Shown here in pieces: positions 2,296-21,127 of a stretch of DNA of 52,630 bases. The translations under genes were made by a program, and so were the position numbers. Origin of the DNA: a virus. Each line of letters begins with the position of its first letter. Position 1 is the stretch's first letter. The stretch lies in the IMG/VR virus record IMGVR_UViG_3300031111_000529, positions 1-52,630 of that record. One strand, 5' to 3'. A model generated the notes under the pieces. It saw only the letters and a list, made by a program, of their open reading frames with translations, was not told the DNA's origin and did no database searches.

Positions 2296-5200
2296 ATGCC
2301 GAGCAGGACAAGCAAGAGCGGCAGTGAACTGTTCATTGTGGACAACAGTGATGCAGACTGGAAGGTCCAGCGTTACCTGCGCGATTGGTGCCAGATCTCG
2401 AAGCAGTTGGATGTCGCTACGGGCTATTTTGAGATCGGTTCTCTATTGTCGCTGGGGGATGCTTGGGAGAGGGTGGATCATGTTCGCATCCTGATGGGCG
2501 ACGAGGTATCTCTTCGCACGAAGCGTGCCTTCGAAGAAGGGCTGGCGCACGCCACCGGAACACTGGATGAGAGCATTGAGGCCGCCAAGGAAACCAATGA
2601 CTTTCTGGTCGGCGTGCCAGCCATCGTTGAAGGGATCCGTAGTGGCAAGATAGCCTGCCGCGTGTACCGTAAGGACAAGTTCCACGCTAAGGCCTACATC
2701 ACGCACGGCCGGCTGGACGTGGTCGGGGCCTCCGCCTTGGTTGGGTCATCAAACTTCACGCACCCCGGGCTGACGGAAAACCTTGAACTCAACGTTCAGA
2801 TCACCGGCAGTCCGGTGAGTGTCCTTCAGGAGTGGTACGAGGAGCACTGGAACAATGCGGAAGACGTGACGCCGGAGATCCTCAGGACTATCGAACGCCA
2901 CACGCGGGAGTATCCCCCCTTCGAGGTCTACGCGCGAAGTCTGCAGGAGTACTTCCGCAGCCACGAGCTGACGGCCGACGAATGGGAACGGCGTGACTCA
3001 AAGATGTACCCGGTCCTGGCCACGTACCAGCGACATGGGTACCACGGCTTGCTGAAGAGAGCCAGGAAGTACGGCGGCGCCTTCCTTTGCGACGGCGTGG
3101 GTTTGGGCAAGACCTACATCGGACTAATGGCCATCGAGCGCCTTGTCCTCCACGAGAAGAAACGCGTCGCGCTCTTCGTCCCGAAGGCCGCACGGGAAGC
3201 CGTCTGGGAAAGCAAGATCAAGAAACACCTGCCGGAGATTCTCGGCGGGTTCCTGAGCTTCCGCATCTACAACCATACGGACCTGCTCCGTACAAACAGG
3301 CAGATTCGCCTCGAACTGGAGCAGATGAAGGAACAGGCGGACGTGGTGATGATCGATGAGGCCCATCACTTCCGCAACACCGGCATTCGCGGTGAGGATG
3401 AAGGTGATCGCAGAAGCCGTTACTGGGAAATGTTCGACATCTGCGATGGCAAGCAGCTCTTCCTGCTTACCGCCACGCCCGTCAACAACCGCCTGACCGA
3501 CTTCCAGCACATGACCGAATTGTTCTCGCGCCGGAAGGCGGAGTACTTCGGCATTGCTCCCCTTGGCATCCACAGCCTGCCCGGCCATGTCCGCACGTTG
3601 GAGAAACAGATTGAGGCCGCTGCCAAAGGACGCGAAGAGGAACTGAGCGAAGGCACGGCAGCCCTTGAGGAAGACAACGCTGAAACAAACCTGGCGGAAG
3701 CCGAGCAGATCCTGCGCGATGACTCACTCTTCGAGGAACTCGTCGTCCAGCGCAGCCGGGCTTACGTCAAGCAGTCCCTCGCCGAAGAGGACGGCCAAGT
3801 GCTTTTCCCGCAGTCCTCACCCCCGAAGGTCGTCCCCTACTCCGTCAAGCAGACCTACGGCAAACTGCTGAAGATGGTGGAGGATGCCTTCCACCAAAAG
3901 AAGCCGCTGTTCTCGCTGGCAATGTACTACCCATGGGACTACTACACCGGCGAACGTGACTTAACCGAGCAAGACGCCGCCATGACCGTTGGCCGCCAGA
4001 AGCAAGTAGCCCGACTGATTCGCACATCCTTCCTCAAGCGATTTGAGAGTTCGGTCTTCGCTTTCAAGGCGTCGTGCGAAACATTGATGAAGAAGCTGAT
4101 CGCCTTCTACCAAGTTCATGCCGAGGATCGCCACGACAAGGATCGCCTGGACAAGTGGCTCGGCCGCAACAAGGACATTACAGGCTTCGACCCGCACAAG
4201 CAGCACACCCTCTTCCCCGACCAGAAGGATCTGGAACTTGAGGAAGAGGACGTTGTGGAGCCGGAGTATTTCGAGAAGGCGTACAAGGATCGGCTCAGCC
4301 CGGATGAGTTCAACATTCCCGGTCTCCTGGCTGATGCCCTAAATGACCTGAACACTATCGCCGATTTCCTCAAGGAACTGGCCCTATTCGAGCCAAAGCA
4401 GGACAAGAAACTCCAGGCGCTCATCCAGCTGCTTCGCGGGCATACGCCGGGGTTGAAAGACGTTGCTCTCCAGCGCCACAAGCTGCTGGTCTTCACCGAG
4501 TTCAAGGACACGGCCCGTTATCTCGCTGAGCAACTCATCGAGGCCGGGTTCGCCGACGTGGTCGAGATCGACTCCCGCACACACTCCAACGGCCGGCTGG
4601 CCGTGATCCGAGCATTTGCTCCTTACTACAACGACTCATCCAGCGCGGACCTGGCCGCCAAAGGCCTGGACGAGACGCGCATCCTGATCTCGACGGATGT
4701 CCTCTCAGAAGGCCTGAACCTCCAGGACGCCACGCGTCTGGTCAACTACGACCTGCACTGGAACCCCGTGCGGCTCATGCAGCGCATTGGCCGAATCGAC
4801 CGGCGGCTAGACCCCGCTGTCGAGGCCCAGATGATCGCTGACCGCCCGGAGATCGAGAAGTTCCGCGGCATGATCCAGTACTACAACTTCCTCCCGCCGG
4901 ACGAATTGAACGAGCTTCTCAGTCTCTACAAGACCGTCACCCACAAGACGCTTCGCATCTCCAAGACCTTCGGCATCGAGAACGGCAAGCTGCTCCGCCC
5001 GGACGATGATTACGATATCCTCCGCGACTTCGTACGCCAGTGCGAGGGAACCGAATCGCAGAGCGAGGGCCTCAGCCTGGAGTTCCAGAAGCTGCTCAAG
5101 GACAACCCCGACATCGAGGCCAGAATCAGCCAATTCCCCAACCGCGTCTTCGCCGGTAAGGAATCGCTCAGTCCCGACACCACAGGCGTCTTCTTCTGCT

Positions 5201-5490
5201 ACGCCCGCCCAGCCAAGGATATAGACAGCGACGACTGGACCATCGAAGCCGGAGACGTGAGGTGGTATCTCTACGACCTTGCCACGGAGAAGATCATCGA
5301 AGACCCATACGAGATCGTCCAGCACATCCGCTCCGGCCCGGACACTCCGCGCGTTTGCCGCATGGGACAAGACGATCTCATCGAGATCCGTAAGAAGATG
5401 GACAAGTACATCAAGAACAGCTACCTCAAAAAGGTCCAGGCTCCAATCGGCGTGAAGCCGGTCCTCCGCACCTGGATGGAGCTAGCCTAG
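2296..5490 (+). CDS. SNF2-type helicase with N-terminal phospholipase-D-like nuclease domain
   Basis: A 1064-residue protein. Residues about 15-200 form a PLD-like domain with a single HxK motif (FHAKAYITH, about residue 130) followed by GSSNFT. A superfamily 2 SNF2-like helicase core follows: Walker A DGVGLGKTY (about 265), DEAH box VVMIDEAHHF (about 350), LLTATPVNN, motif IV LLVFTEFKDTARYL, and motifs V-VI running from STDVLSEGLN to IGRIDRR (about 798-835). Such fusions occur in DISARM-like and other restriction systems, where the helicase translocates on DNA and the PLD domain cuts. It lies 18 bp upstream of the methyltransferase gene in one operon. I infer that the two form a restriction-modification-like defence system. 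No frameshift or lost motif was seen. Confidence 0.92.
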   Translation: MPSRTSKSGSELFIVDNSDADWKVQRYLRDWCQISKQLDVATGYFEIGSLLSLGDAWERVDHVRILMGDEVSLRTKRAFEEGLAHATGTLDESIEAAKETNDFLVGVPAIVEGIRSGKIACRVYRKDKFHAKAYITHGRLDVVGASALVGSSNFTHPGLTENLELNVQITGSPVSVLQEWYEEHWNNAEDVTPEILRTIERHTREYPPFEVYARSLQEYFRSHELTADEWERRDSKMYPVLATYQRHGYHGLLKRARKYGGAFLCDGVGLGKTYIGLMAIERLVLHEKKRVALFVPKAAREAVWESKIKKHLPEILGGFLSFRIYNHTDLLRTNRQIRLELEQMKEQADVVMIDEAHHFRNTGIRGEDEGDRRSRYWEMFDICDGKQLFLLTATPVNNRLTDFQHMTELFSRRKAEYFGIAPLGIHSLPGHVRTLEKQIEAAAKGREEELSEGTAALEEDNAETNLAEAEQILRDDSLFEELVVQRSRAYVKQSLAEEDGQVLFPQSSPPKVVPYSVKQTYGKLLKMVEDAFHQKKPLFSLAMYYPWDYYTGERDLTEQDAAMTVGRQKQVARLIRTSFLKRFESSVFAFKASCETLMKKLIAFYQVHAEDRHDKDRLDKWLGRNKDITGFDPHKQHTLFPDQKDLELEEEDVVEPEYFEKAYKDRLSPDEFNIPGLLADALNDLNTIADFLKELALFEPKQDKKLQALIQLLRGHTPGLKDVALQRHKLLVFTEFKDTARYLAEQLIEAGFADVVEIDSRTHSNGRLAVIRAFAPYYNDSSSADLAAKGLDETRILISTDVLSEGLNLQDATRLVNYDLHWNPVRLMQRIGRIDRRLDPAVEAQMIADRPEIEKFRGMIQYYNFLPPDELNELLSLYKTVTHKTLRISKTFGIENGKLLRPDDDYDILRDFVRQCEGTESQSEGLSLEFQKLLKDNPDIEARISQFPNRVFAGKESLSPDTTGVFFCYARPAKDIDSDDWTIEAGDVRWYLYDLATEKIIEDPYEIVQHIRSGPDTPRVCRMGQDDLIEIRKKMDKYIKNSYLKKVQAPIGVKPVLRTWMELA

Positions 5491-5508
5491 GGACAAGGGG
5501 TGTGATCA

Positions 5509-8500
5509 ATGTCTGAAGAGATTCGAGAGCAGCTGCAGGCCATCAAGACGTTCCCTTCGCTGGTCAAGTACCTCCGAGATGAACTCGACTGGCCCATCGA
5601 AGCCGATGACTTCGATGACCTGACCTTTGACTACGAGCCCGAAGAACTGGGCATCGATGCCAAGACGGCCGCGAAGATCGAGTACGTCAAACAGCTCCGC
5701 CCCCTTGAGGACGGCCAGCCCTGGGGCATCTTCTTCGTCAAGTTCGAGCCCAAGCGGCTCCCCGTCGTCGCCATGCGCCGCATCCTCCGCGGCCTAGCTG
5801 TCAAGAAGCGTGCCTCCGCCAACCGGGCCGACAGGGCTGCCTGGGCCAGGACCGACCTGCTGTTTATCTCAGCCTACGGCGAGAACGAGCAACGTCACAT
5901 CAACTTCGCCCACTTCCACGAGAGTCCACAGAACGGCGACCTGCCCGTCCTGCGCGTTCTTGGCTGGGATGGCTCGGACACCGCCCTGCACATCGACCAC
6001 GTCCACGAGACGCTCACGAGCAGGCTGCGCTGGCCAGATGACGTTCTGGATGCCAATGCTTGGCGGGAGACCTGGGCCGGCGCCTTTACCCTTAAACACC
6101 GCGAGGTCATCACCACCAGCAAGCAGATGGCCATTCGTCTGGCCGACCTTGCCCGGCAGATCCGCAAGAAGATCAACTCCATCCTGGCCATCGAGAAACA
6201 AAGCGGTCCCATGCATAAACTCATGGCTGCCTTCAAGGAAGCCCTCATTCACGACCTGTCAGAAGATGACTTCGCCGATACTTTTGCTCAGACCATTAGC
6301 TATGGGCTTCTGATCGCAGGCATGTCTCGTACCGTCAACGGTGAAGGCACGGCTGTGATCGCGACCGATATTGTCGAGATGGTTCCCAGAACGAACCCCT
6401 TTCTCCGCGAAATGCTTGCGACATTCCTAACCGTCGGGGGGCGTAGAGGCAGGCTGGACTTCGATGAACTGGGCATCAGTGACGTCGTCGATGTTCTTCG
6501 CAGCCCGGATACGCACATGGAGGCCGTCAAACGCGACGTTGGCGACGCAAATGTACGAGAAGATCCTGCCCTCTATTTCTACGAGCTGTTCCTGAAAGAA
6601 TACGACGCTAAGAAGCGCATGCAGCGCGGCGTCTTCTACACCCCCCGGCCGGTCGTATCCTACATCGTCCGCTCCGTCCACGAGCTGCTCCAGACCGAGT
6701 TCGGCTTGGAAGACGGCCTTGCCGACACGACTACCTGGGGGGAGATGGTCGAGAGATGTCCCGACCTCAAGCTGCCGACCATCAAGGTCAAGAAGCCCGA
6801 CTTGCCTGACCTGGTGAATGAGCCCATTGATCCCTCCACCCCGTTTATCCAGATACTCGACCCGGCCACCGGCACCGGCACCTTCCTTGTCGAGGTCATC
6901 GACGTCGTCCACAAGACGATGAAGCAGAAGTGGCTCGATGGTGGCCACTTGCCTCTGCAGATTCCCGAACTGTGGAACGACTACGTGCCCGAGCACCTTC
7001 TGCCACGTCTGTACGGCTACGAACTCATGATGGCCCCATATGCCATCGCCCACATGAAGATCGGCCTGAAGCTCTTCGAGACCGGCTACCGCTTCGGAAC
7101 CGACGAGCGGGCCCGCATCTATCTCACCAACGCACTCGAGCCCGCGCAGGACTTCTCAGACACGTTCGAGCAGATGGCCCCCGCCCTAGCCCACGAAGCC
7201 CAGGCCGTCAACGACGTCAAGCGGCATCATCGCTTCACCGTAGTGATCGGGAATCCACCGTATTCCGCGCTATCCGCCAATCTGACCGAACAGGCGCGTC
7301 GACTCGTGACACGGTTTAAGTACATTGATGGCATCAAACTCCACGAACGCGGCGCGTTGCAGTTGGAGAAGAATCTTCAGGATGACTATGTCAAGTTCTT
7401 GGCCATTACCGAAGATCACTTGAGCGAAAGCGGGATTGGCGCTTGCGGCATCATCTGCAATCACGGTTTCATCGACAATCCCACTCTACGAGGTCTACGC
7501 TGGTCGCTGTTGGACCGTTTCAGCAACCAGTGGGTCCTGGATCTGCACGGCAATGTCAATCGCCGCGAAGTCGCGCCGGACGGCTCGCCCGATCAGAATA
7601 TCTTCGACATCAAGGACGCGGGGGTAGCAATCTTCCTCGCCACACGCGGCCAGCGCACATGTTCTGCGGACGCTGGACTGCGCCAAGCGGACCTCTGGGG
7701 GGGAGACCGTGTGACGCAGAAATACCCATTTCTGTCGACGGAGTCAGCCGCGACAACGCCGTGGGAATCGGTCTCGACCGGCCCCGAGCTGTACCTGTTC
7801 TGCAACATCGGTGGCCCCGACGCGGAAGAATACGCGGCTTGGCCTAAGGCTACGGAGGTCTTTCCGCTGCACAGTATCGGCATGATTACGGCGCGGGACG
7901 CGTACGTCATTGACTTCGAGCCGGGGCTGGTCTTAGAGCGGGCGAAGGCCTTCCGCGGCTCAACTTTGGATGACGAGGCGACGTGCCAGGCGCTGGGCAT
8001 TCCGTTAAAGAAAGGCTGGAACATTGCTCGGGCGCGCCAGCGGATTCAGCAAGTGACGAACCTGGCATCCTGCGTTCACCCGCTGCTGTACCGTCCGTTC
8101 GACATCCGGCCTGTGTTCTATCACGAATCGCTGATCTGGGGCATGGCCTGGCCAGTGATGCAGCACATGCTCGAAGGGCAGAACTTGGCCCTGATCACAT
8201 CGCGGATGACGAAGGGGGAGGACTTCCAGCATGTGTTGGTTAGCCGGGGTCTTTCCGAGGTGATTCTGCTTTCGTCGAAGACCTCCAACAACGCCTTCGT
8301 TTTCCCGTTGTACTTACGCAATCAGGAGGACATGCTTCATGCTGGCGGCACGACGAACATCAGCACGGAGTATACCCGAAGCATCTCGCAGGTCATCGGT
8401 GGCGCTGCACCTCCTCAAGCGATCTTTCAGTACATCTATGCCGTGCTGCACAGTCTAACGTACCGTAAGCGGTACGTGCATCTGCTGAAGCGCGACTTTC

Positions 8501-8991
8501 CGCGCATCCCGGTTCCAGCGACTGCGCATGTCTTCGACGGCCTGGCCGAATTGGGCGGGGAACTGGTTCCTCTGCACCTTCTGGAGTCCCCGCTGCTGGA
8601 CAAGCCGATTACCGCCTACACCGGCCCGGCAAATCCGGAGGTGGAGAAGGTCAGCTACAGCGACGAAACCGTCTGGCTGGACAGGGCCAAGACCCGTGGC
8701 TTTGAGGGCGTGCCGGAAGACGTCTGGAACTTCCACATCGGCGGGTACCAAGTCTGCCACAAGTGGCTCAAGGATCGCCAGGCCAAGGGCGGCAGGAACC
8801 CACGCCCCGGCCGCGTACTCAAGAAAGACGACGTCGAGCACTACCGCAAGATCGTCACGGCCCTCCACCACACCATCCGCCTCATGGGCGAGATCGACGA
8901 AGTCATCGAGCAGCACGGCGGCTGGCCCGACGCCTTCATCACTGACCCAAAGGTCTTGGAAGGCCTGAAATCAAGAGATGGGAAGCCATAG
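5509..8991 (+). CDS. Type ISP-like N6-adenine DNA methyltransferase
   Basis: A 1160-residue protein. The methyltransferase core has GVFYTPRPVVSYIV (about residue 376), motif I DPATGTGTFLVEV (about 450) and motif IV NPPYS (about 582), which is the gamma-type adenine methylase order. The C-terminal third resembles the target-recognition region of type ISP enzymes (HIGGYQVCHKWLKDRQ, then EHYRKIVTALHHTIRLMGEI). Classical type ISP enzymes carry nuclease, helicase and methylase on one chain. Here the nuclease-helicase is the separate upstream protein, so the pair looks like a split version. The methylase would protect host DNA and define the recognition site. It sits in an operon with the helicase. 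Confidence 0.92.
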   Translation: MSEEIREQLQAIKTFPSLVKYLRDELDWPIEADDFDDLTFDYEPEELGIDAKTAAKIEYVKQLRPLEDGQPWGIFFVKFEPKRLPVVAMRRILRGLAVKKRASANRADRAAWARTDLLFISAYGENEQRHINFAHFHESPQNGDLPVLRVLGWDGSDTALHIDHVHETLTSRLRWPDDVLDANAWRETWAGAFTLKHREVITTSKQMAIRLADLARQIRKKINSILAIEKQSGPMHKLMAAFKEALIHDLSEDDFADTFAQTISYGLLIAGMSRTVNGEGTAVIATDIVEMVPRTNPFLREMLATFLTVGGRRGRLDFDELGISDVVDVLRSPDTHMEAVKRDVGDANVREDPALYFYELFLKEYDAKKRMQRGVFYTPRPVVSYIVRSVHELLQTEFGLEDGLADTTTWGEMVERCPDLKLPTIKVKKPDLPDLVNEPIDPSTPFIQILDPATGTGTFLVEVIDVVHKTMKQKWLDGGHLPLQIPELWNDYVPEHLLPRLYGYELMMAPYAIAHMKIGLKLFETGYRFGTDERARIYLTNALEPAQDFSDTFEQMAPALAHEAQAVNDVKRHHRFTVVIGNPPYSALSANLTEQARRLVTRFKYIDGIKLHERGALQLEKNLQDDYVKFLAITEDHLSESGIGACGIICNHGFIDNPTLRGLRWSLLDRFSNQWVLDLHGNVNRREVAPDGSPDQNIFDIKDAGVAIFLATRGQRTCSADAGLRQADLWGGDRVTQKYPFLSTESAATTPWESVSTGPELYLFCNIGGPDAEEYAAWPKATEVFPLHSIGMITARDAYVIDFEPGLVLERAKAFRGSTLDDEATCQALGIPLKKGWNIARARQRIQQVTNLASCVHPLLYRPFDIRPVFYHESLIWGMAWPVMQHMLEGQNLALITSRMTKGEDFQHVLVSRGLSEVILLSSKTSNNAFVFPLYLRNQEDMLHAGGTTNISTEYTRSISQVIGGAAPPQAIFQYIYAVLHSLTYRKRYVHLLKRDFPRIPVPATAHVFDGLAELGGELVPLHLLESPLLDKPITAYTGPANPEVEKVSYSDETVWLDRAKTRGFEGVPEDVWNFHIGGYQVCHKWLKDRQAKGGRNPRPGRVLKKDDVEHYRKIVTALHHTIRLMGEIDEVIEQHGGWPDAFITDPKVLEGLKSRDGKP

Positions 8992-9027
8992 TCGCCTCTC
9001 ATCTGGAGCGACAGCCCACTAAGCCGC

Positions 9028-9349
9028 ATGGGAACACTTACCATAGACAATCAGGACGGCCTTCACTTGCGGACCAATGCTCCTGCTGAGCAGGCCCAAC
9101 GTTATGCGGCTGCGTTCCGCCAGGTATGGCAGACGATTCACCCAAATGACCGGCAGAGAGCCAAGGGCCACTGGCTCGGCAATAGCCCCACCGGACATCG
9201 AGCTGAGCGACCTGTGGCAACACAACGAGCGGGCTGGGCAACGGTATATTCTGGACCTGCTATTGAGCGTAACCAATCTGAGCGTTCAGACAATGGATAC
9301 CGTGGACAGCCTGCCGACGCTGGACCTCTCCGCGGGGGCGGAGAGATGA
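9028..9349 (+). pseudogene. Small gene apparently split by a frameshift
   Basis: The first part, from ATG at 9028, reads MGTLTIDNQDGLHLRTN and continues to a plausible RYAAAFRQVWQTIHPNDRQRAKGHW. Beyond about 9170 this frame turns into low-quality sequence, while the +1 frame becomes convincing (PPDIELSDLWQHNERAGQ, then RYILDLLLSV) and stops at 9349. Joining the two would give a protein of about 105 residues. I do not recognise the family. A real mutation, a sequencing indel and a chance pair of open frames are all possible. It lies between the methyltransferase and the 258-residue gene, in about 400 bp with no other gene. Confidence 0.4.
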
Positions 9350-9392
9350 TCCGAAACAGAAGCATGGAGTTGCCAGCGAAGGAGTAATCCTC

Positions 9393-10169
9393 ATGGGCCA
9401 CAACCGACTTCATGTAATCGCGCAGACGCGGCTTTGGCGCGAGGTGGTCGGCACGCTGGAAGACCACGACAGTGGGATGGCCGATGTTGCGTCGGCGACG
9501 GCGACGGCCGCGCAGACCGGCCTTCAACGGGCCAAGGGGGACGAAGGGCTTTCGTACGCATTCTGGCTTCTCTGCCAGATTCCGCTGGCCGCCAAGAAGG
9601 CCGACTTCGGCAAGGGCCTTCGCGGGCTGGGGCTGGACGTCCCCGACGCGCCTTCGACGTTCGACGTAGCCGCCGGTTTCACTGAGGCCGTCGAGTCCCA
9701 CCTTCGCCGGACCCGAGGCCGGACAGACATAGGTGAAATCGCCCAACTGGCCGCTGCCGAGTGCCTGACCGCCACGGCGACGCAGGCGCTGAAGGGCCTG
9801 TTCAGTTCAGAGGCCGAGAACGTCCAGAACACCTTCGGGGGGCAGGCGACGCAGAAGAACTTCGGCTTCTTCGCCCAGGACTTCTTCGCACGGTTTGCGA
9901 GCCGCTTCCTGGCATACCACCTCAGCCGGGAGCTTTCGAACCATGTCGGCGAAGGTCGTCGGTTTGCGAACATATCCGAGCATGAGCAGTTCAAGGAAGC
10001 GATGGAGCTTCATTGCCGCCAGACCGCCCGCATTGTGCGGGAGTATGCCGGGACCTGGCATTCGAAGACAAGCTATGAATCGGGAATCACGCCCCGGAAG
10101 GCCAAGCGATTCGTCGCCCATGCGATGACCAAGCTGAGCGATGAGCTTTCGCGAAGGGAGGGGCGATGA
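9393..10169 (+). CDS. Unknown protein coupled to a QatC/QueC-like enzyme
   Basis: A 258-residue, mostly helical, soluble protein with no motif I recognise. The start is sound: AAGGAG lies eight bases before the ATG. The chain begins Met-Gly-His-Asn, so methionine removal would expose an N-terminal glycine. Its stop codon overlaps the next gene's start in ATGA, which implies translational coupling and a shared function. In known QatABCD and type IV CBASS systems, QueC-like enzymes have, to my knowledge, been reported to attach a 7-deazaguanine to the N-terminus of a partner protein. By position this protein is the candidate partner or effector, comparable to QatB, but I see no clear sequence similarity. 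That role is inference. Confidence 0.75.
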   Translation: MGHNRLHVIAQTRLWREVVGTLEDHDSGMADVASATATAAQTGLQRAKGDEGLSYAFWLLCQIPLAAKKADFGKGLRGLGLDVPDAPSTFDVAAGFTEAVESHLRRTRGRTDIGEIAQLAAAECLTATATQALKGLFSSEAENVQNTFGGQATQKNFGFFAQDFFARFASRFLAYHLSRELSNHVGEGRRFANISEHEQFKEAMELHCRQTARIVREYAGTWHSKTSYESGITPRKAKRFVAHAMTKLSDELSRREGR

Positions 10170-11866
10170 AGCACGAACGCCTAATCCTTTGCGGCGGCGC
10201 ATCGGCCCCCCGAGGCGTGCGGGCTGAACGGCTTCACCTGGACCTTTGGGGCCGCGACCCGAACGTATTCCTGAAGATTCGCAATATCACCGACGCCGTG
10301 GCCAAGAACCCCCCGCCAGTCCTGCTGGACTTGCTGGACGTGGCCGCCTACCTGTACGCCGGCGATCAATGCGTTCCGCGCGGGGGGACGGCCAGCTTCG
10401 ACTACGGCGACCGATGGGACCGCCGATTGCGCTACGTGATTCCGCTTCGAAGGCCCAAGGTATGGCAACGCGCCAGAGTCAAAGAAGCCCTGGCCGACGT
10501 TCTCGGCTGGATGACCGATGACCAGTTTGAGTTCCGTTTTCCGCAACTGAAGAATCCCCCGAAGCTGCCGAGTTACCTTGAGTTCGACAAGGACACGGCG
10601 AACCCCACGGGCATTGAGGAAGTCTGCATGTTCTCGGGCGGGTTGGATTCGCTGGCGGGCGCGGTCAAAGAAGCCGTGGTGGACGGCCGGAAAGTTGCGC
10701 TGGTTGGCCACTGCCCCGCCCCGCAACTGCACAAGCGGCAGGACCAGCTTCTTGAGGCCCTGGCCGCAAAGTGCAAGCCGGCCAAGCGGCCGTTCTTTGT
10801 CCAAGTATGGGCAAACAAGGCTTCCAGCTTGACCAAAGACACGTCGCAGCGCATCAGGTCCTTCCTGTTCGCTTCGCTGGGCGCGGTGATTGCCGGCATG
10901 ATGAAGCTGAATCGCGTTCGGTTCTACGAGAACGGCCCGGTTTCGCTGAACCTTCCCCTTTGCGAACAGCTTGTTGGGGCGCGGGTCACGCGGACGACGC
11001 ACCCGAAGACGCTAGCCGGGATGAGTAAGCTGCTCAGCCTGTTGCTAGGAACCGACTTCGCGGTGGACAACCCGTTCCTGTGGAAGACGCGAACCGACAC
11101 TGTGCTTGACCTGAAAGCCGCGAAGGCCGAAGACCTGCTCCCCTACACCGTCAGTTGCAGCCATACGCGGGGAATGACAACGGGCTACCCGCATTGCGGT
11201 TGCTGTTCGCAGTGCATAGACAGGCGCTTCGCCGTCTTGGCCGCCGATTGTGGACAACACGACCCCGCCGATTCCTACCAACTGGACGTGCTCACCGACG
11301 GGCGAGACAAGACCGAAGACCGCACCATGCTGGAACGCTACTTGGGCTTCGCGGCCAAGGTCGAAGCCGTTAAGGACGAGAACACCTTCTTCACTGAGTT
11401 CCCCGAAGCCTATCGCACAATCAACGCCATGGACGGGGACCGGCGGGAATCGGCCAAACAGGTCATCGCACTGTGCAAACGACACGGGGAGCAGGTCAAC
11501 GGCGTTGTCGACCGCGCCTTGGCCGATGCGGCTGCAAGTGGAGCATTGCGGCGCGGGGAACTGCCAGGCAATTGTGCGCTCCTGCTGGTGGGAAGCAGGC
11601 ACTCGACCCCCGCGCCTACGACCGAAGCCACTGGGCAGGATAGTGCATCGCCTGCCGAACAGGATACCGACCGCCCACGCTGCGCGCCAATGACACGAAC
11701 CGAGATAGCCCGCCGGCTGCTAAACCGAACAGACGCCCGCGTTCGTCAAGCTGAAGGCATGATGAAGCGCCTTGGCTTGCGGCAGGAAGACGGCAAGTTC
11801 TACACGATCCTGGTTGACCAACTGGATCCTGCGACGAGGACACGCCTTCTGAAGCCAGCTTCTTGA
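10166..11866 (+). CDS. QatC-like / QueC-family (7-cyano-7-deazaguanine synthase-like) protein
   Basis: A 566-residue protein, more than twice the length of housekeeping QueC. Residues 1-150 form an N-terminal region of the QatC type (LLDVAAYLYAGDQCVPRGG, later WQRARVKEALADVLGWMTDD). A PP-loop ATPase motif SGGLDS occupies residues 157-162. The QueC zinc site is complete: Cys331, then Cys344, Cys346/347 and Cys350 in PHCGCCSQCIDRR. Residues about 500-566 look like a winged-helix or other small C-terminal domain. The gene starts inside the stop of the 258-residue gene. No other queuosine gene, TatD nuclease or KAP ATPase is nearby, so it is not a standard QatABCD operon. I expect ATP-dependent activation of a deazaguanine substrate used in anti-phage defence. 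Confidence 0.88.
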   Translation: MKHERLILCGGASAPRGVRAERLHLDLWGRDPNVFLKIRNITDAVAKNPPPVLLDLLDVAAYLYAGDQCVPRGGTASFDYGDRWDRRLRYVIPLRRPKVWQRARVKEALADVLGWMTDDQFEFRFPQLKNPPKLPSYLEFDKDTANPTGIEEVCMFSGGLDSLAGAVKEAVVDGRKVALVGHCPAPQLHKRQDQLLEALAAKCKPAKRPFFVQVWANKASSLTKDTSQRIRSFLFASLGAVIAGMMKLNRVRFYENGPVSLNLPLCEQLVGARVTRTTHPKTLAGMSKLLSLLLGTDFAVDNPFLWKTRTDTVLDLKAAKAEDLLPYTVSCSHTRGMTTGYPHCGCCSQCIDRRFAVLAADCGQHDPADSYQLDVLTDGRDKTEDRTMLERYLGFAAKVEAVKDENTFFTEFPEAYRTINAMDGDRRESAKQVIALCKRHGEQVNGVVDRALADAAASGALRRGELPGNCALLLVGSRHSTPAPTTEATGQDSASPAEQDTDRPRCAPMTRTEIARRLLNRTDARVRQAEGMMKRLGLRQEDGKFYTILVDQLDPATRTRLLKPAS

Positions 11867-15201: not shown

Positions 15202-16892
15202 TCCAGCTGCGCCCATACCAGGTCGAGGCCGTCAGTTCAGTCTATGAGCACCTGCAGCATAGAGATGACCATCCGTGTGTCGTGATCCCGACGGCTGGGG
15301 GTAAGACTCCGGTGATGGCCAGCATATGCCGAGACGCAGTGCAGCGCTGGGACGGGCGCGTGTTGATCCTGGCCCACGTGAAGGAACTGCTGGAGCAGGC
15401 CGTCGAGAAGCTCCACATCATGGCTCCTGATCTGTGGAATCGTATCGGGGTCTACTCGGCCGGCCTTCGCAGTCGCGACACCGACCACCCGATCATCGTC
15501 GCGGGCATCCAGAGCGTCTACCGCAGAGCTGCCCAGCTGGATCGCTTCGATCTCATCTGTATCGACGAGGCCCACATGCTTCCGCCGGACGGCGAGGGGA
15601 TGTATCGCACGTTCATGGCCGAGGCGCAAGTGGTCAACCCGAACGTCCGCCTCATCGGCCTGACTGCCACTCCGTACCGCATGACGACCGGCATGATCTG
15701 CTCACCGGACAATCTCCTTAACCACGTCTGCTACGAAGTGGGCGTCCGCGAGTTGATCGTGCAGGGATACCTGTGCCCGCTGAAGACCAAGGCAGGCAGG
15801 CGGAAGGTGGACACGTCTGGGCTGCACATACGGGGCGGTGAGTTCATCGCCGGCGAGGTAGAGGCGCTGATGGACGACGACTCGCTGGTTCAGTCGGCCT
15901 GTCAGGAGATCGTCGATCACGCGCGTGACAGGCATTCGGTGCTTATCTTCGCGTCCGGCGTCCAGCATGCCCTGCACGTCCAGCGCGTACTGGCCGAGAT
16001 AGGCCAGGAGTGCGGCTTCGTGTGCGGTGAGACGCTTCCCTACAGACGTGCGCAGACGCTGGAGCAGTTCAAGGCAGGCAAGCTGAAGTACTTGGTCAAC
16101 GTTAACGTGCTGACTACCGGGTTCGACGCGCCCAATATCGACTGCGTGGCCCTGCTGAGGCCGACGAACTCGCCGGGCCTGTACTACCAGATGGTAGGTC
16201 GAGGCTTCAGGCTCGACCCGTCGAAGGCAGACTGCCTGATCCTGGACTTCGGCGGCAACATCATGCGACACGGACCGGTCGATGCCCTCCAGATCAAGGA
16301 TCCCGCCAGCAGCGACGGCCAAGCTCCTGCTAAGGAGTGCCCGCAGTGTCAGGCCGTCATCCACGCCGCCTACGCCAATTGTCCGTACTGCGGCTACGAA
16401 TTCCCGCCGCGCCAGCACCGCGAGCACGACCGGCAGGCCACGACTGCCGGCATCCTATCCGGCGAGGTGACCGAGACGGACTGCGAGGTCAGCGAAGTCT
16501 ACTACAGCGTGCACGTCAAGCGCGATGCTCCGGAGGACCACCCGCACAGCATGCGCGTCGATTATCGTTGCGGCTTCAACGAGTACCACAGCGAGTGGGT
16601 CTGCTTCGAACACACCGGCTACGCCAGGGCGAAGGCCGAGGCGTGGTGGCGCGCCCGATCCAACGAGCCGGTCCCCAGTACCGTCGAGGAGGCGGTGGAT
16701 ATCTGTGAGGAAGGCGGGATAGCGCCGACGCTGGCCATCACGGTGCGTTCAGTGTCGGGCGAGAAGTTCGACCGGATTACAAACTACCAGCTCGGGCCCA
16801 TCCCGCCGCGCTTGGACGGCAGCGACGAGCGTGACGAGGGCGGTCTACCCATACACGACTGGCCGCCCGATGACTGCGAGGTGCCGTTCTAG
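15198..16892 (+). CDS. DEAD/DEAH-box superfamily 2 DNA helicase with C-terminal zinc finger
   Basis: A 564-residue helicase. I place the start at GTG 15198 (reads MIQLRPYQVEAV, a normal family start). Motifs in order: Walker A PTAGGKT, DEAH ICIDEAHMLP, LTATPYRMT, motif IV LIFASGVQHA, motif V TTGFDAPNID and motif VI YQMVGRGFRL. A four-cysteine zinc ribbon follows (CPQCQ...CPYCGYEFP). About 130 residues C-terminal to it are unassigned. This is the phage type of replicative or recombination helicase resembling SSL2/type III restriction helicases. It belongs to the Sak4-SSB-RusA operon and is convergent with the nuclease gene, overlapping by 4 bp. Confidence 0.93.
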   Translation: MIQLRPYQVEAVSSVYEHLQHRDDHPCVVIPTAGGKTPVMASICRDAVQRWDGRVLILAHVKELLEQAVEKLHIMAPDLWNRIGVYSAGLRSRDTDHPIIVAGIQSVYRRAAQLDRFDLICIDEAHMLPPDGEGMYRTFMAEAQVVNPNVRLIGLTATPYRMTTGMICSPDNLLNHVCYEVGVRELIVQGYLCPLKTKAGRRKVDTSGLHIRGGEFIAGEVEALMDDDSLVQSACQEIVDHARDRHSVLIFASGVQHALHVQRVLAEIGQECGFVCGETLPYRRAQTLEQFKAGKLKYLVNVNVLTTGFDAPNIDCVALLRPTNSPGLYYQMVGRGFRLDPSKADCLILDFGGNIMRHGPVDALQIKDPASSDGQAPAKECPQCQAVIHAAYANCPYCGYEFPPRQHREHDRQATTAGILSGEVTETDCEVSEVYYSVHVKRDAPEDHPHSMRVDYRCGFNEYHSEWVCFEHTGYARAKAEAWWRARSNEPVPSTVEEAVDICEEGGIAPTLAITVRSVSGEKFDRITNYQLGPIPPRLDGSDERDEGGLPIHDWPPDDCEVPF

Positions 16893-17827
16893 AGATGTTC
16901 TATCTGACCGAAGTCAAGATACCGTTGTTGGAAGCGTTCCAGGTGGCGGGCCAACGCGCTGCCTTGACAGGAACGGCCGCGTTCTATGACCTGTTCCAGC
17001 GTGAGCAGTCTGATCCGGTCCTTGAAGGCCGGCACAAGTCGATCTGTCAGTTGGCTCACCAGCTCAGGGGACTCGGTGTCCTGCTCGGGCGCCAGGACGT
17101 AGTTGATGGCGCTGGTCAGCGCGTGCTTCTTTGCATATGCAAGCGTGAGGAGCAGGTTGCGTGCGATCTGGTCGAAGCCATTCTGCCGGTACCAGCCAAG
17201 CCCTTCGTCGGTGAACATCTCCAGTTTCAGAGCGAGGGCGAACTTCTTGTCCTGTTTCGTTGCCGCGTTGCCGCCAAGCTTATCTGTGTACTTGGTCTCT
17301 ATGCTGACCAGGCCGGGCCGGCCCTGCGGATCGGCGAAGAAGATTGCCGCGTCGAAGGCCGTCTTGTCGTCTATGTAGTCTTCAATGGGCGTGGGGATCA
17401 TCTCCACGATGACATCCTGGACCTTTGCGATGGGCGACAAGGGGAACATTGCCGCGAGCACAGATGTGGCATCAGGATGGCTATCGCGGACGGCCGCCCG
17501 AAAGTCAGCGAACAGATTGAAACACATGGGCATGCTGGAGAGCATGTTGTTGAAGAGGCGGAATTCATCGATGGTCAGGGCTGGGTTGTCCTCCTTGTCA
17601 GAGACGCGCTTTTTGGCGTATGCGAAGGCTTGGGGACTGATGAAGTTAGCACCAGTCAGATGTCCGTCGACCAATGCGCTACCTACAGGCCGAGCGCCCT
17701 TGCGCCAGGGGCCGCATGCCGATATCCCCAAGACCTCGACGCGATACCAGCTCTGCAGAAGACGGCATTGGCGTGTGAATGTGTTCTTGTCGTTGGGAAG
17801 CGGACCGTATCTATCATCGATGACCAT
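16889..17827 (-). CDS. PD-(D/E)XK restriction endonuclease-like protein (PGN_0703-like)
   Basis: A 312-residue protein on the strand opposite to the replication genes. A nuclease core is visible: Asp159 in AFDAAIFFADPQG and Glu177-x-Lys179 in GLVSIETKY, the D...ExK pattern. It resembles the PGN_0703 family of putative restriction endonucleases. The frame stays open upstream of the ATG for about 18 codons (ending ARNSNGWT before MVIDDRYG) without a start codon and then meets TAG. This suggests a 5' truncation or a nonsense change. Its 3' end overlaps the helicase gene by 4 bp. With the 17919 gene it forms a reversed two-gene insert, likely a defence moron. Confidence 0.8.
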   Translation of the reverse strand: MVIDDRYGPLPNDKNTFTRQCRLLQSWYRVEVLGISACGPWRKGARPVGSALVDGHLTGANFISPQAFAYAKKRVSDKEDNPALTIDEFRLFNNMLSSMPMCFNLFADFRAAVRDSHPDATSVLAAMFPLSPIAKVQDVIVEMIPTPIEDYIDDKTAFDAAIFFADPQGRPGLVSIETKYTDKLGGNAATKQDKKFALALKLEMFTDEGLGWYRQNGFDQIARNLLLTLAYAKKHALTSAINYVLAPEQDTESPELVSQLTDRLVPAFKDRIRLLTLEQVIERGRSCQGSALARHLERFQQRYLDFGQIEHL

Positions 17828-18362: not shown

Positions 18363-20736
18363 GACGGGCGCCAGAATACCGGGCGAATGCAGTGTGGGCA
18401 AGCAGGCCCACGTTTACTTAAGCGCCGGCCTGTGCGTCCTGCCCGCCCGTCGCGACCAGAAGCGCCCGACAGTGGCGTGGAAGGCGTTCCAGAAGCGTCT
18501 GCCCACCTCCAGCGAGATCGACGCATGGTTCGCCAACGGCCACAGTGCGCTATGCCTGCTCACCGGCGAGGTGTCGGGTCGGCTGGAGTTGATCGATTTC
18601 GACAACGGCGGCGAACTCTTCCAACAGTGGTGTGATAAGGTCCGCGCGGTGGCGCCCGGTCTGCTGGAGCGGCTTGTTCTGTCCAGGACTCAGTCCGACG
18701 GACGCCACGCCGTCTACCGCCATGAGGCGGAGATCTGCGGCAACCTGAAGCTGGCCCAACGCCGCAGTGGTGACAAGATTACCACGCTCATCGAGACTCG
18801 TGGCGAGGGCGGGCTGTTCCTGTGCGCCCCGACGGATGGGTACGAGCTGATCCAGGGCGACCTGTGTGACCTGCCCGTCCTGACCGAACCCGAGCGCGAC
18901 GTTCTCCTGCAGGCGGCCTGGGATCTGAACGAATACATGCCGCCGGTGGTCGATGGTCCGAAGGGATCGGCGAATCTTGGCCACAGGGGGCCACTGTCGG
19001 CCCACAGTTCGAATAACTCGCCCTTATCGGCCCACCCGGCCAACAATCCACCGATCTCCGCCCACGACGCCGACAGTGCGCCCATGTCGGCGGATAATTC
19101 GCACAGGCCCGGCGATGATTTCAATGATCGCGGAGATGTGGGGTCCATGCTCGAACAATACGGATGGGTTCGCACCAAGGGCGGAGAGAACGAATACTGG
19201 CGACGACCGGGCAAGGAATCGGGCACATCGGCCACCCTCAAGGACCGGGTCTTCTACGTCTTCTCGTCCAATGCCTCGCCGTTCGAGCCCAACCAGGCCT
19301 ATTCTCCGTTTGCGGTCTGCGCATTGCTTGATCATGGCGGAGATTACGAACAGGCAGCCAGTTCTCTGCGACAGCTGGGATACGGAGGCGATGGTCCGCC
19401 AGATGTTCCCACAGGTGTGGACATCTCGGCCATCGTTCAGGCATGTGGCCCACGGCCGCCCGATGATTCGGAAGGTCCGCCACCTGCGTCGAACATCGCC
19501 GACCCCGGGCCGATGTCCGCCGACATGCTGCGGGTGCCCGGCTTTGTCGGCGAGGTAATAGACCACTGCCTGGACACCGCGCCATATCCCAGCCCTGTAA
19601 TGGCCTTCTGCGGCGCGCTATCGCTGCTGGCTTTCCTGGCCGGGCGCAAGGTGCGTGACAACGGCGATAACCGCACGAACATCTACCTGCTGGGCCTGGC
19701 GCACTCCGCTGCCGGCAAGGACTGGCCACGCAAGGTCAACACCCGCATCGTCCATGAGGTGGGTCTGGCCAACTGCCTCGGCGAACGGTTCGCATCAGGC
19801 GAAGGCATCCAGGACGCGCTATTTCAGACCCCGAGCATGCTCTTCCAGACCGACGAGATCGACAGCATGCTCCAGTCGATCAACAAGGCCAAGGACGCCC
19901 GGCATGAAGCGATCATGAGTACGCTGCTGACGATGTACTCGTCGGCCAACAGCGTCTTCCCCATGCGGCGCAAGGCGGGCAAGGAATCGCCTGGCGTCAT
20001 CGATCAGCCCAGCCTGGTCATCTTCGGCACGGCCATTCCGAACCACTACTACAAGGCCCTGAGCGAGCGGATGCTCACCAACGGCTTCTTCGCCCGCATG
20101 ATCATCCTCGAGGCCGGGCCGCGCGGCATGGGCCAAGAGCCGAGTATCCGCGACCTACCACCACGCGTGTTGGCGACGGCCAAATGGTGGGCCGACTACC
20201 AGACTGGCACGGGCAACCTCCAAGACTGGCATCCGGTGCCAGCGATGATTGAGCATACGGCCGAAGCCAAGCGGCTGCTCGTCGAGACCCGCGAGCAAGC
20301 GGAGGCCGAGTATGCCAAGGCCGAGGCGGGTAGCGATCCGGTGGGTACAACCGTCTGGGGACGGGTCAGTGAGCAGACTCGTAAGTTGGCCCTGCTCTAT
20401 GCCATCAGTGAGAACCACGTCTCGCCGCGCATCGGCCTGGCGGCCGTGCAATGGGCATCGGCGTTCGTGATGCACCAGACACGCCGAATGCTGTTCATGG
20501 CGGCCTCTCACGTGGCGGACAGTCCCTTTCACGCCGAATGCCTGAAGGTGATCGAGAAGCTGCGTGAAGCGCCGGGGTGTGAGTTGTCGCACAGCGTGAT
20601 GCTGAAGCGGATGAAGATGAAGGCGAAGGAATTCCACGATCTGATCGAAACGCTGGTGCAGCGAGGCGAGGTGCAGGTGGTTACCACGCCGAAGCCCGGC
20701 TGGCATATGCGGTCGTACCGGCTGATCGGGGGGTGA
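18361..20736 (+). CDS. Prim-Pol primase fused to DUF3987-type helicase/ATPase
   Basis: A 791-residue replication protein. GGAG before ATG 18361 fixes the start. The N-terminal ~200 residues are a bifunctional primase-polymerase domain (GLCVLPARRDQKRPTVAWKA, ALCLLTGEVSGRLELIDFDN with the acidic DFD). A low-complexity linker with four 10-residue repeats follows, then a region with RVFYVFSSNASPFEP (about residues 300-320). The C-terminal half is DUF3987-like, with a P-loop-like AHSAAGKDWPRK and an acidic FQTDEID. It probably primes DNA and unwinds the origin. An iteron/AT-rich region begins at its stop codon, the arrangement expected of an initiator next to its origin. Confidence 0.9.
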   Translation: MTGARIPGECSVGKQAHVYLSAGLCVLPARRDQKRPTVAWKAFQKRLPTSSEIDAWFANGHSALCLLTGEVSGRLELIDFDNGGELFQQWCDKVRAVAPGLLERLVLSRTQSDGRHAVYRHEAEICGNLKLAQRRSGDKITTLIETRGEGGLFLCAPTDGYELIQGDLCDLPVLTEPERDVLLQAAWDLNEYMPPVVDGPKGSANLGHRGPLSAHSSNNSPLSAHPANNPPISAHDADSAPMSADNSHRPGDDFNDRGDVGSMLEQYGWVRTKGGENEYWRRPGKESGTSATLKDRVFYVFSSNASPFEPNQAYSPFAVCALLDHGGDYEQAASSLRQLGYGGDGPPDVPTGVDISAIVQACGPRPPDDSEGPPPASNIADPGPMSADMLRVPGFVGEVIDHCLDTAPYPSPVMAFCGALSLLAFLAGRKVRDNGDNRTNIYLLGLAHSAAGKDWPRKVNTRIVHEVGLANCLGERFASGEGIQDALFQTPSMLFQTDEIDSMLQSINKAKDARHEAIMSTLLTMYSSANSVFPMRRKAGKESPGVIDQPSLVIFGTAIPNHYYKALSERMLTNGFFARMIILEAGPRGMGQEPSIRDLPPRVLATAKWWADYQTGTGNLQDWHPVPAMIEHTAEAKRLLVETREQAEAEYAKAEAGSDPVGTTVWGRVSEQTRKLALLYAISENHVSPRIGLAAVQWASAFVMHQTRRMLFMAASHVADSPFHAECLKVIEKLREAPGCELSHSVMLKRMKMKAKEFHDLIETLVQRGEVQVVTTPKPGWHMRSYRLIGG
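18991..19110 (+). repeat. Four 30-bp tandem repeats inside the primase linker
   Basis: Units start at 18991, 19021, 19051 and 19081, exactly 30 bp apart. They encode ten-residue repeats beginning PLSAH, PLSAH, PISAH and PMSAD. A related PMSAD recurs at 19510. They form a flexible linker between the Prim-Pol and helicase domains and could vary in number by slippage. Confidence 0.85.
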
Positions 20737-20993
20737 ATCTCAAGGTGAAACTTGGCGGTGAGGTGAAACATGACAATGAACGCAGGCAAGAAAACGAGGG
20801 TTTGGGGTGGTGAAGATTCCCAAGATTCACCCAAGATTCACCCCCCAAAGGTGAAACTTCAGATCGAAGGAAATGCCCTATATATAAAGAGAAACAACAA
20901 CTCTCTCTTTATGTTTCACCCTTTCACCCCCATCCCCCCACACGCGATGCCCGCACGCGTATATGTGCGTGTGTGCGTGAGGGGGGGTGAAAC
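20732..20993. repeat. Iteron cluster and AT-rich hairpin: candidate replication origin
   Basis: Ten octamers of the form GGTGAA(A/T/G)(C/A) lie in 262 bp. Forward copies start at 20732, 20744, 20762, 20809, 20850 and 20986. Reverse copies start at 20824, 20835, 20913 and 20921 (one mismatch). Between them is the most AT-rich tract of the area (20878-20912) with a perfect 9-bp inverted repeat, ATAAAGAGA (20884-20892) and TCTCTTTAT (20904-20912). Iterons flanking an AT-rich hairpin beside a primase-helicase gene match the origin plan known from SaPI elements. The stretch 20737-21127 contains no convincing gene. An operator array for a phage repressor is the alternative. Confidence 0.65.
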
Positions 20994-21127
20994 TTCGAAT
21001 CTTCAGATTAGGTACTTCCCGGCCAGAGGGCCAGGAGATGCCAGCGGGAACAGTCGCGCCCATAGGCAGAGTTAGTTTGTGATGTCCGGTTTTTCTACAT
21101 GACCCCAACTTACATGGAGGTGCACCC

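Follow-up and report, generated by a model that had tools for sequence, protein, structure and literature searches.

A GGTGAA iteron array behind a DUF3987-type primase-helicase gene as the probable replication origin of a planctomycete-type tailed phage, with iteron letters that follow the primase winged helix

The 52,630-base IMG/VR record IMGVR_UViG_3300031111_000529, taken here in its entirety as the window, encodes a primase-helicase with Prim-Pol, DUF3987 (AAA+) and C-terminal winged-helix domains, and at the very end of its gene begins an array of short GGTGAA repeats (iterons). Comparison with related loci indicates that the array region is very likely the replication origin of a tailed phage, bound by the phage's own primase-helicase. 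What is visible at the level of sequence is the array itself, the frame in which relatives keep it, the co-variation of its letters with the winged helix of the adjacent primase, and the swapping of the two as a cassette. An origin had been proposed here in the initial annotation, and the proposal is now strongly supported by the presence of an array at the same place in relatives and by its dependence on the primase winged helix.

Ten copies of GGTGAA, distributed over both strands, lie within 20732-20991 of the window (plus-strand starts at 20732, 20744, 20762, 20809, 20850 and 20986; minus-strand copies at 20826, 20837, 20915 and 20923). Elsewhere in the window there are 34 copies per 52.4 kb, scattered and forming no second cluster, which amounts to 0.17 expected per 262 nt and a Poisson probability of 5e-15 for at least ten copies (~1e-12 allowing for all windows). 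Dinucleotide-shuffled versions of the array contain 0.28 copies on average and at most three (2000 shuffles). All ten iterons initially annotated in 20732-20993 are thereby recovered; they do begin at the primase stop codon as claimed, the TGA at 20734-20736 lying inside the first copy, and the longest shared form, GGTGAAACTT, is indeed present at 20744, 20850 and 20986. Most copies conform to an eleven-base form, GGTGAA(A/T)C(T/A)T(G/C), two of the minus-strand ones reading GGTGAATCTTG, and seven iterons on the left and three on the right flank an AT-rich core.

The AlphaFold2 (AF2) model of the primase, with a pLDDT of 86.6, has three parts: Prim-Pol, AAA+ and, at the C-terminus, a winged helix. 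Foldseek searches with this model recover the pRN1 Prim-Pol (1rni, the top PDB match), MCM/ORC subunits and PriRep1 with dsDNA, the last of these a protein of Staphylococcus aureus pathogenicity islands (SaPIs); the AAA+ domain is of the MCM/ORC type by fold. The modelled winged helix consists of a1 (722-736), a2 (744-751), a3 (755-767), b2 (771-778) and b3 (781-788), with residues 778 and 781 at the wing tip. The protein is the presumed origin-binding initiator, primase and helicase, and this winged helix was not found in other proteins, e.g. an origin-directed nuclease, near the examined loci. A fold link between this winged helix and the alpha protein of phage P4 was considered and dropped: the domain's best matches in the PDB are winged helices of a generic kind, and P4 alpha is not among the matches listed.

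Most relatives show the same order after the primase stop codon. Iterons on both strands come first, then an AT-rich core that ends in AAACAACAACTCTCTC or a like sequence, inverted iterons, a GC-rich inverted pair containing an alternating purine-pyrimidine run, and a last iteron; several relatives retain even the iteron spacing of the window (11, 13, 65, 8, 63). In loci with the HS/HQ-xLLKRM-type winged helix the densest GGTGAA cluster starts between -60 and +250 nt from the primase stop in 77 of 102, and in those of the GGTGAA class the iterons extend into the final 60 nt of the primase reading frame in 71/92, overlapping the stop codon in 32. The C-terminal tails of relatives such as L002, L007 and L201 (e.g. 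GVKPDGETSDGGET) look like iterons translated in frame, with the origin overlapping coding sequence. Loci with other winged helices carry other repeats in the same frame, namely GTGAAGGATT, GTGACGGATT, TGCTAAACGTG, GCGCAACAGGTT and CAATAGGTT.

Within the array, the 40 nt at 20879-20918 have a GC content of 25%, below all 10,518 sampled 40-nt windows of the record, and the AT-rich core of 119 relatives has a median minimum GC of 0.34. The AT-rich hairpin described at the outset is not conserved: the 9-bp AT palindrome at 20884-20912 is found in the window copy alone, while relatives lack it and keep the AAACAACAACTCTCTC core, which rules it out as a conserved cruciform. The GC-rich inverted pair had been overlooked; its layout is kept in 38 relatives, and within it lies a 28-nt alternating purine-pyrimidine run (20952-20979), which exceeds the longest run of 20 shuffles in 87/119 relatives. 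The run persists at the same place in relatives though its letters change; that it is a Z-DNA-prone tract is speculation on our part. No DnaA boxes lie beside the AT core in the window region, and DnaA-box-like sites occur in 5 of 192 loci.

At the level of the aligned loci, the iteron letters follow the winged helix rather than the protein body. In a Mantel analysis of 101 loci, the similarity of iterons rises with that of the winged helices (r 0.80), and the correlation still stands at 0.76 when the body is partialled out (reached in 0/500 permutations), whereas the partial correlation with the body given the winged helix is 0.13. In the GGTGAA class, no column of the protein tells more about iteron positions 8, 9 and 10 than residue 781; with post-stop sites only, it carries 0.84, 0.84 and 0.71 bit on these positions, compared with 0.16-0.23 for the best body column, and shuffling it within clusters of similar bodies reached the observed value in 0/1000 trials. 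The rule can be read off directly: W goes with CT/CA, S or T mostly with CG, and R with GA. In a cluster comprising 50 loci whose bodies are similar, W occurs with C(T/A) in 14/14, R with GA in 26/26, S with CG in 4/4 and T with (C/G)G in 3/3. Separately from this cluster count, Q at residue 745 is accompanied by G at iteron position 7 in 8/8. In the window the codons for 745 and 781 lie upstream of the iterons, and the 781 signal is not weakened by counting post-stop sites only. The iteron classes were first grouped after inspection of the proteins; unsupervised and post-stop-only versions agreed. Thus the C-terminal winged helix and the iterons co-vary strongly, and the C-terminal domain may recognise the iterons as in PICI/SaPI origins (PICI, phage-inducible chromosomal island). 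Comparing the iterons of relatives with divergent C-terminal domains, a check named at the outset, gave a positive result.

The rules were fixed in writing before further loci were retrieved. Among these new loci, at least three GGTGAA copies are present in 25/29 with the GGTGAA-type helix and at least four in 0/12 of the others. The iteron letters predicted from residue 781 were right at position 8 in 21/21, at position 9 in 21/21 (Fisher's exact P ~2e-5) and at position 10 in 14/21. One new locus, L399, has a GGTPQR-type wing and is accompanied by AATAGGT, matching the prediction.

Near-identical primases with different winged helices carry different iterons. In three profiled pairs (L223/L262, L223/L259 and L168/L228) the primase bodies are ~70-97% identical, identity drops to background over a stretch that starts 150-300 nt ahead of the stop and takes in the origin, and it is back to ~60-93% from 525-600 nt past the stop; since similarity is regained downstream, winged helix and origin were therefore exchanged as one cassette. 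In two other pairs (L216/L221 and L054/L107) similarity is lost at the winged helix and not regained within ~900 nt. Contigs sharing the right-hand module also have the slot occupied by other initiators (Prim-Pol with PriCT-1 and AAA_25; AAA_25; NrS-1-like), and several of these bring post-stop repeats of their own: GGGTTGA, CGCAACG (x12) and CGAGGTTA. Taken together, we probably see a natural and readable amino-acid-to-base code from winged helix to iterons (W, S/T and R at 781 for CT/CA, CG and GA; S/Q at 745 for A/G at position 7), an exchangeable cassette of winged helix and origin, and replacement of even the whole initiator in the same slot, in several cases bringing new iterons, as would be expected under strong diversifying selection on origin identity.

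These patterns suggest a mechanism in which binding, melting, priming and origin activity are what we infer, the step from iterons to origin leaning on anatomy and on the precedents named below. The primase-helicase encoded upstream would bind the eleven-base iterons via its C-terminal winged helix, the helix-turn-helix contacting the GGTGAA half and the wing tip the other half (ACTTG/TCTTG in the case of W781). Copies on both strands would load protein rings flanking the AT-rich core, which the AAA+ motor would then open, and the fused Prim-Pol would prime DNA synthesis. The codons of the winged helix lie next to the iterons, and the two therefore form a single specificity cassette, exchangeable by recombination while the remainder of the protein and the gene next door stay in place.

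Several points weigh against this reading. A closely related group with the GGTGAA-type winged helix (L035, L041, L079 and L222) has no array of at least four copies in the available sequence, and the array of L196 sits 1.8 kb downstream. The loci are related and hence not fully independent; 15 of the 21 test loci carry R at 781, so that the test of W and S/T comes down to six loci, and the rule for the TxTK-type wing was not confirmed in the new loci. Moreover, what co-variation shows is that the sites are read by the protein; it does not make them the start point of replication, and an autoregulatory or copy-control array would co-vary as well. The array could accordingly be a primase-bound control site serving autorepression, copy control or incompatibility, with replication starting elsewhere, as in P4, where crr lies beside the primase gene and a separate ori has the same repeats; the relatives with a distant array or no adjacent one would fit this. 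We nevertheless regard it as unlikely, given that the record has no second GGTGAA cluster and that its most AT-rich sampled stretch is within the array.

The reading as operators of a CI-like phage repressor controlling the downstream methyltransferase or late genes, raised as an alternative in the initial annotation, is more improbable still. Short inverted sites arrayed in non-coding sequence ahead of a gene can be operators, and the gap holding the array does precede the methyltransferase; yet an operator would not be predicted to track the primase winged helix, as the sites do even between near-identical bodies. The layout and AT core suit an origin, and the conserved element before the methyltransferase (21005-21095) is separate and unchanged by iteron class. 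Least probable is a structured RNA or a terminator/attenuator after the primase gene, with the repeats as hairpin by-products. The GC-rich inverted pair and a strong folding energy would favour it, the array region folding as single-stranded DNA better than shuffles (z -5.1), but this is largely because the iterons are inverted: across 38 aligned relatives the iteron arms of the inverted pair alone pair consistently, those arms barely vary, and no compensatory change in stems beyond them was predicted. Single iterons and direct copies would be left unexplained, and there is no credible Rfam match.

The origin anatomy favoured here has counterparts in several systems. In P4, crr directly follows the primase-helicase gene and, by its annotation, is needed in cis for replication; it holds type 1 repeats with a GGTGAA core on both strands beside an AT-rich stretch, and ori has these repeats too. 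P4 differs in that its repeat continues CAGT and that its actual ori lies elsewhere. Its alpha protein combines another kind of primase with an SF3-type helicase, unlike the window initiator with its Prim-Pol, DUF3987 and MCM/ORC-type AAA+ rather than an alpha-type SF3/D5 motor, and comparison by eye of P4 alpha with the C-terminus of the window primase gave no evident sequence similarity. The shared GGTGAA core may be convergence, because the motors differ.

The window region matches the pri-rep-ori plan of PICI/SaPI origins (PMC6092414, PMC7581432), with the origin immediately 3' of the initiator gene, as also in most relatives. Thus, the SaPI plan invoked at the outset holds for the layout and not for the element: satellites are without structural phage genes of their own, whereas the window itself encodes TerL, portal, head protease/capsid and tape measure and is a complete tailed phage. 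Further, its motor is of the DUF3987 type, not DUF927 or D5, and its iterons reach into the stop codon or beyond it. In the Vibrio PLE, variation in the RepA_N domain, with which the initiator binds DNA, goes along with variation in the origin, and both are exchanged as modules (PMC8263062); there, however, two alleles have ~30-bp semi-palindromic iterons read by RepA_N, as opposed here to many iteron types, a C-terminal winged helix adjoining the origin and a residue-level rule. ORF904 of pRN1 shares the Prim-Pol fold, and an essential element lies directly 3' of its replication gene; this is one ~100-nt stem-loop alongside an SF3 helicase, with no iterons reported in the passages covered (PMC4234260). 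A large conserved stem-loop of that type is not seen here, pairing in the 38 relatives being limited to the iteron arms. In SCCmec, the C-terminal domain of the initiator helicase Cch2 binds short repeats downstream of its gene (PMC7581432), but the primase-polymerase is a separate subunit and the iterons are three 5-nt copies (AAGTG).

A literature search, with most subscription journals outside its coverage, found no account of the origin of the DUF3987 primase family or of a residue-level rule, and one for GGTGAACAG gave only unrelated matches among those listed. The results point to a likely function, that of an origin-specific initiator, for a widespread family of primases in which the AAA+ part still goes under the name DUF3987, and to a likely origin location in the little-studied phages of Planctomycetota. 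The many natural variants make switching of initiator origin-specificity directly testable by binding. The exchange of cassettes suggests that origin identity is under selection, as has been proposed for PLE with its origin-directed nuclease. In the cultured Sphingomonas phage Kharn (L415, 3857-4100) the primase stop is followed by nine ATACAAC repeats that surround an AT-rich stretch; the primase of Kharn is related through a DUF3987-region match, and the phage offers a laboratory model for the same origin plan.

Table 1. Coordinates of the primase gene, the iteron array and associated features (window positions unless a locus is named)
Feature	Position	Strand	Remarks
Prim-Pol + DUF3987 (AAA+) + C-terminal winged helix, 791 aa	18361..20736	+	PF09250, PF13148; PHROG DNA primase
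Winged-helix codons, residues 722-788	20524..20724	+	AF2 model; domain alone pLDDT 86
S745 codon, start of helix a2	20593..20595	+	Q at 745 pairs with G at iteron position 7
Wing-tip codons K778-P779-G780-W781	20692..20703	+	W781 pairs with iteron 3' half C(T/A)T
Iteron 1 GGTGAATCTCA	20732..20742	+	includes primase stop codon
Iteron 2 GGTGAAACTTG	20744..20754	+	
Iteron 3 GGTGAAACATG	20762..20772	+	
Iteron 4 GGTGAAGATTC	20809..20819	+	3' half poor
Iteron 5 GGTGAATCTTG	20821..20831	-	
Iteron 6 GGTGAATCTTG	20832..20842	-	
Iteron 7 GGTGAAACTTC	20850..20860	+	left edge of AT core
AT-rich core, presumed melting site	20876..20914	.	conserved part AAACAACAACTCTCTC
Iteron 8 GGTGAAACATA	20910..20920	-	
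Iteron 9 GGTGAAAGGGT	20918..20928	-	
GC-rich inverted pair	20922..20992	.	arms 20922-20946 and 20968-20992; iterons at base
Iteron 10 GGTGAAACTTC	20986..20996	+	
Conserved single-copy element	21005..21095	+	right of origin; one copy in 61/192 loci
Other initiators before the same methyltransferase module	L478:9128-11119, L486:3-1022, L488:5337-8015, L473:3893-6508		

The element to the right of the origin is ~75-90 nt long, reads GGTACTTCCC...GCGGGAACAGYCGC...GCAGAGTTTGTTT...TGTCCGG, always on the plus strand, and is also found in L003, L033, L059, L242 and others. The methyltransferase comes next after it in 84 of 95 contigs, and 38 of these 84 lack a DUF3987 primase in the available stretch. 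The element does not vary with iteron class; it goes with the methyltransferase/terminase module and not with the origin. An RNA structure was rejected for it (three pairs only, no compensatory change), and it is possibly a promoter/leader or a packaging site.

Downstream of the primase the record encodes a ParB-N/DNA methyltransferase, the terminase (TerL), the portal, the head protease/capsid and the tape measure. Besides viral contigs, matches to the window primase come mainly from genomes of Planctomycetota, the phylum with most of the related genome loci, and 73 of 392 sampled genomes of that phylum match at least part of the protein; the phage is thus of a planctomycete type. That co-resident prophages differ in their iterons does not hold as a general rule, two of the same class occurring in some genomes. 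Apparent defence cargo is encoded at 2296-11866 and 16889-17827 (minus strand) of the window, comprising an SNF2-type helicase, a type IIG restriction-methyltransferase, a QatC-like gene and a PDDEXK nuclease.
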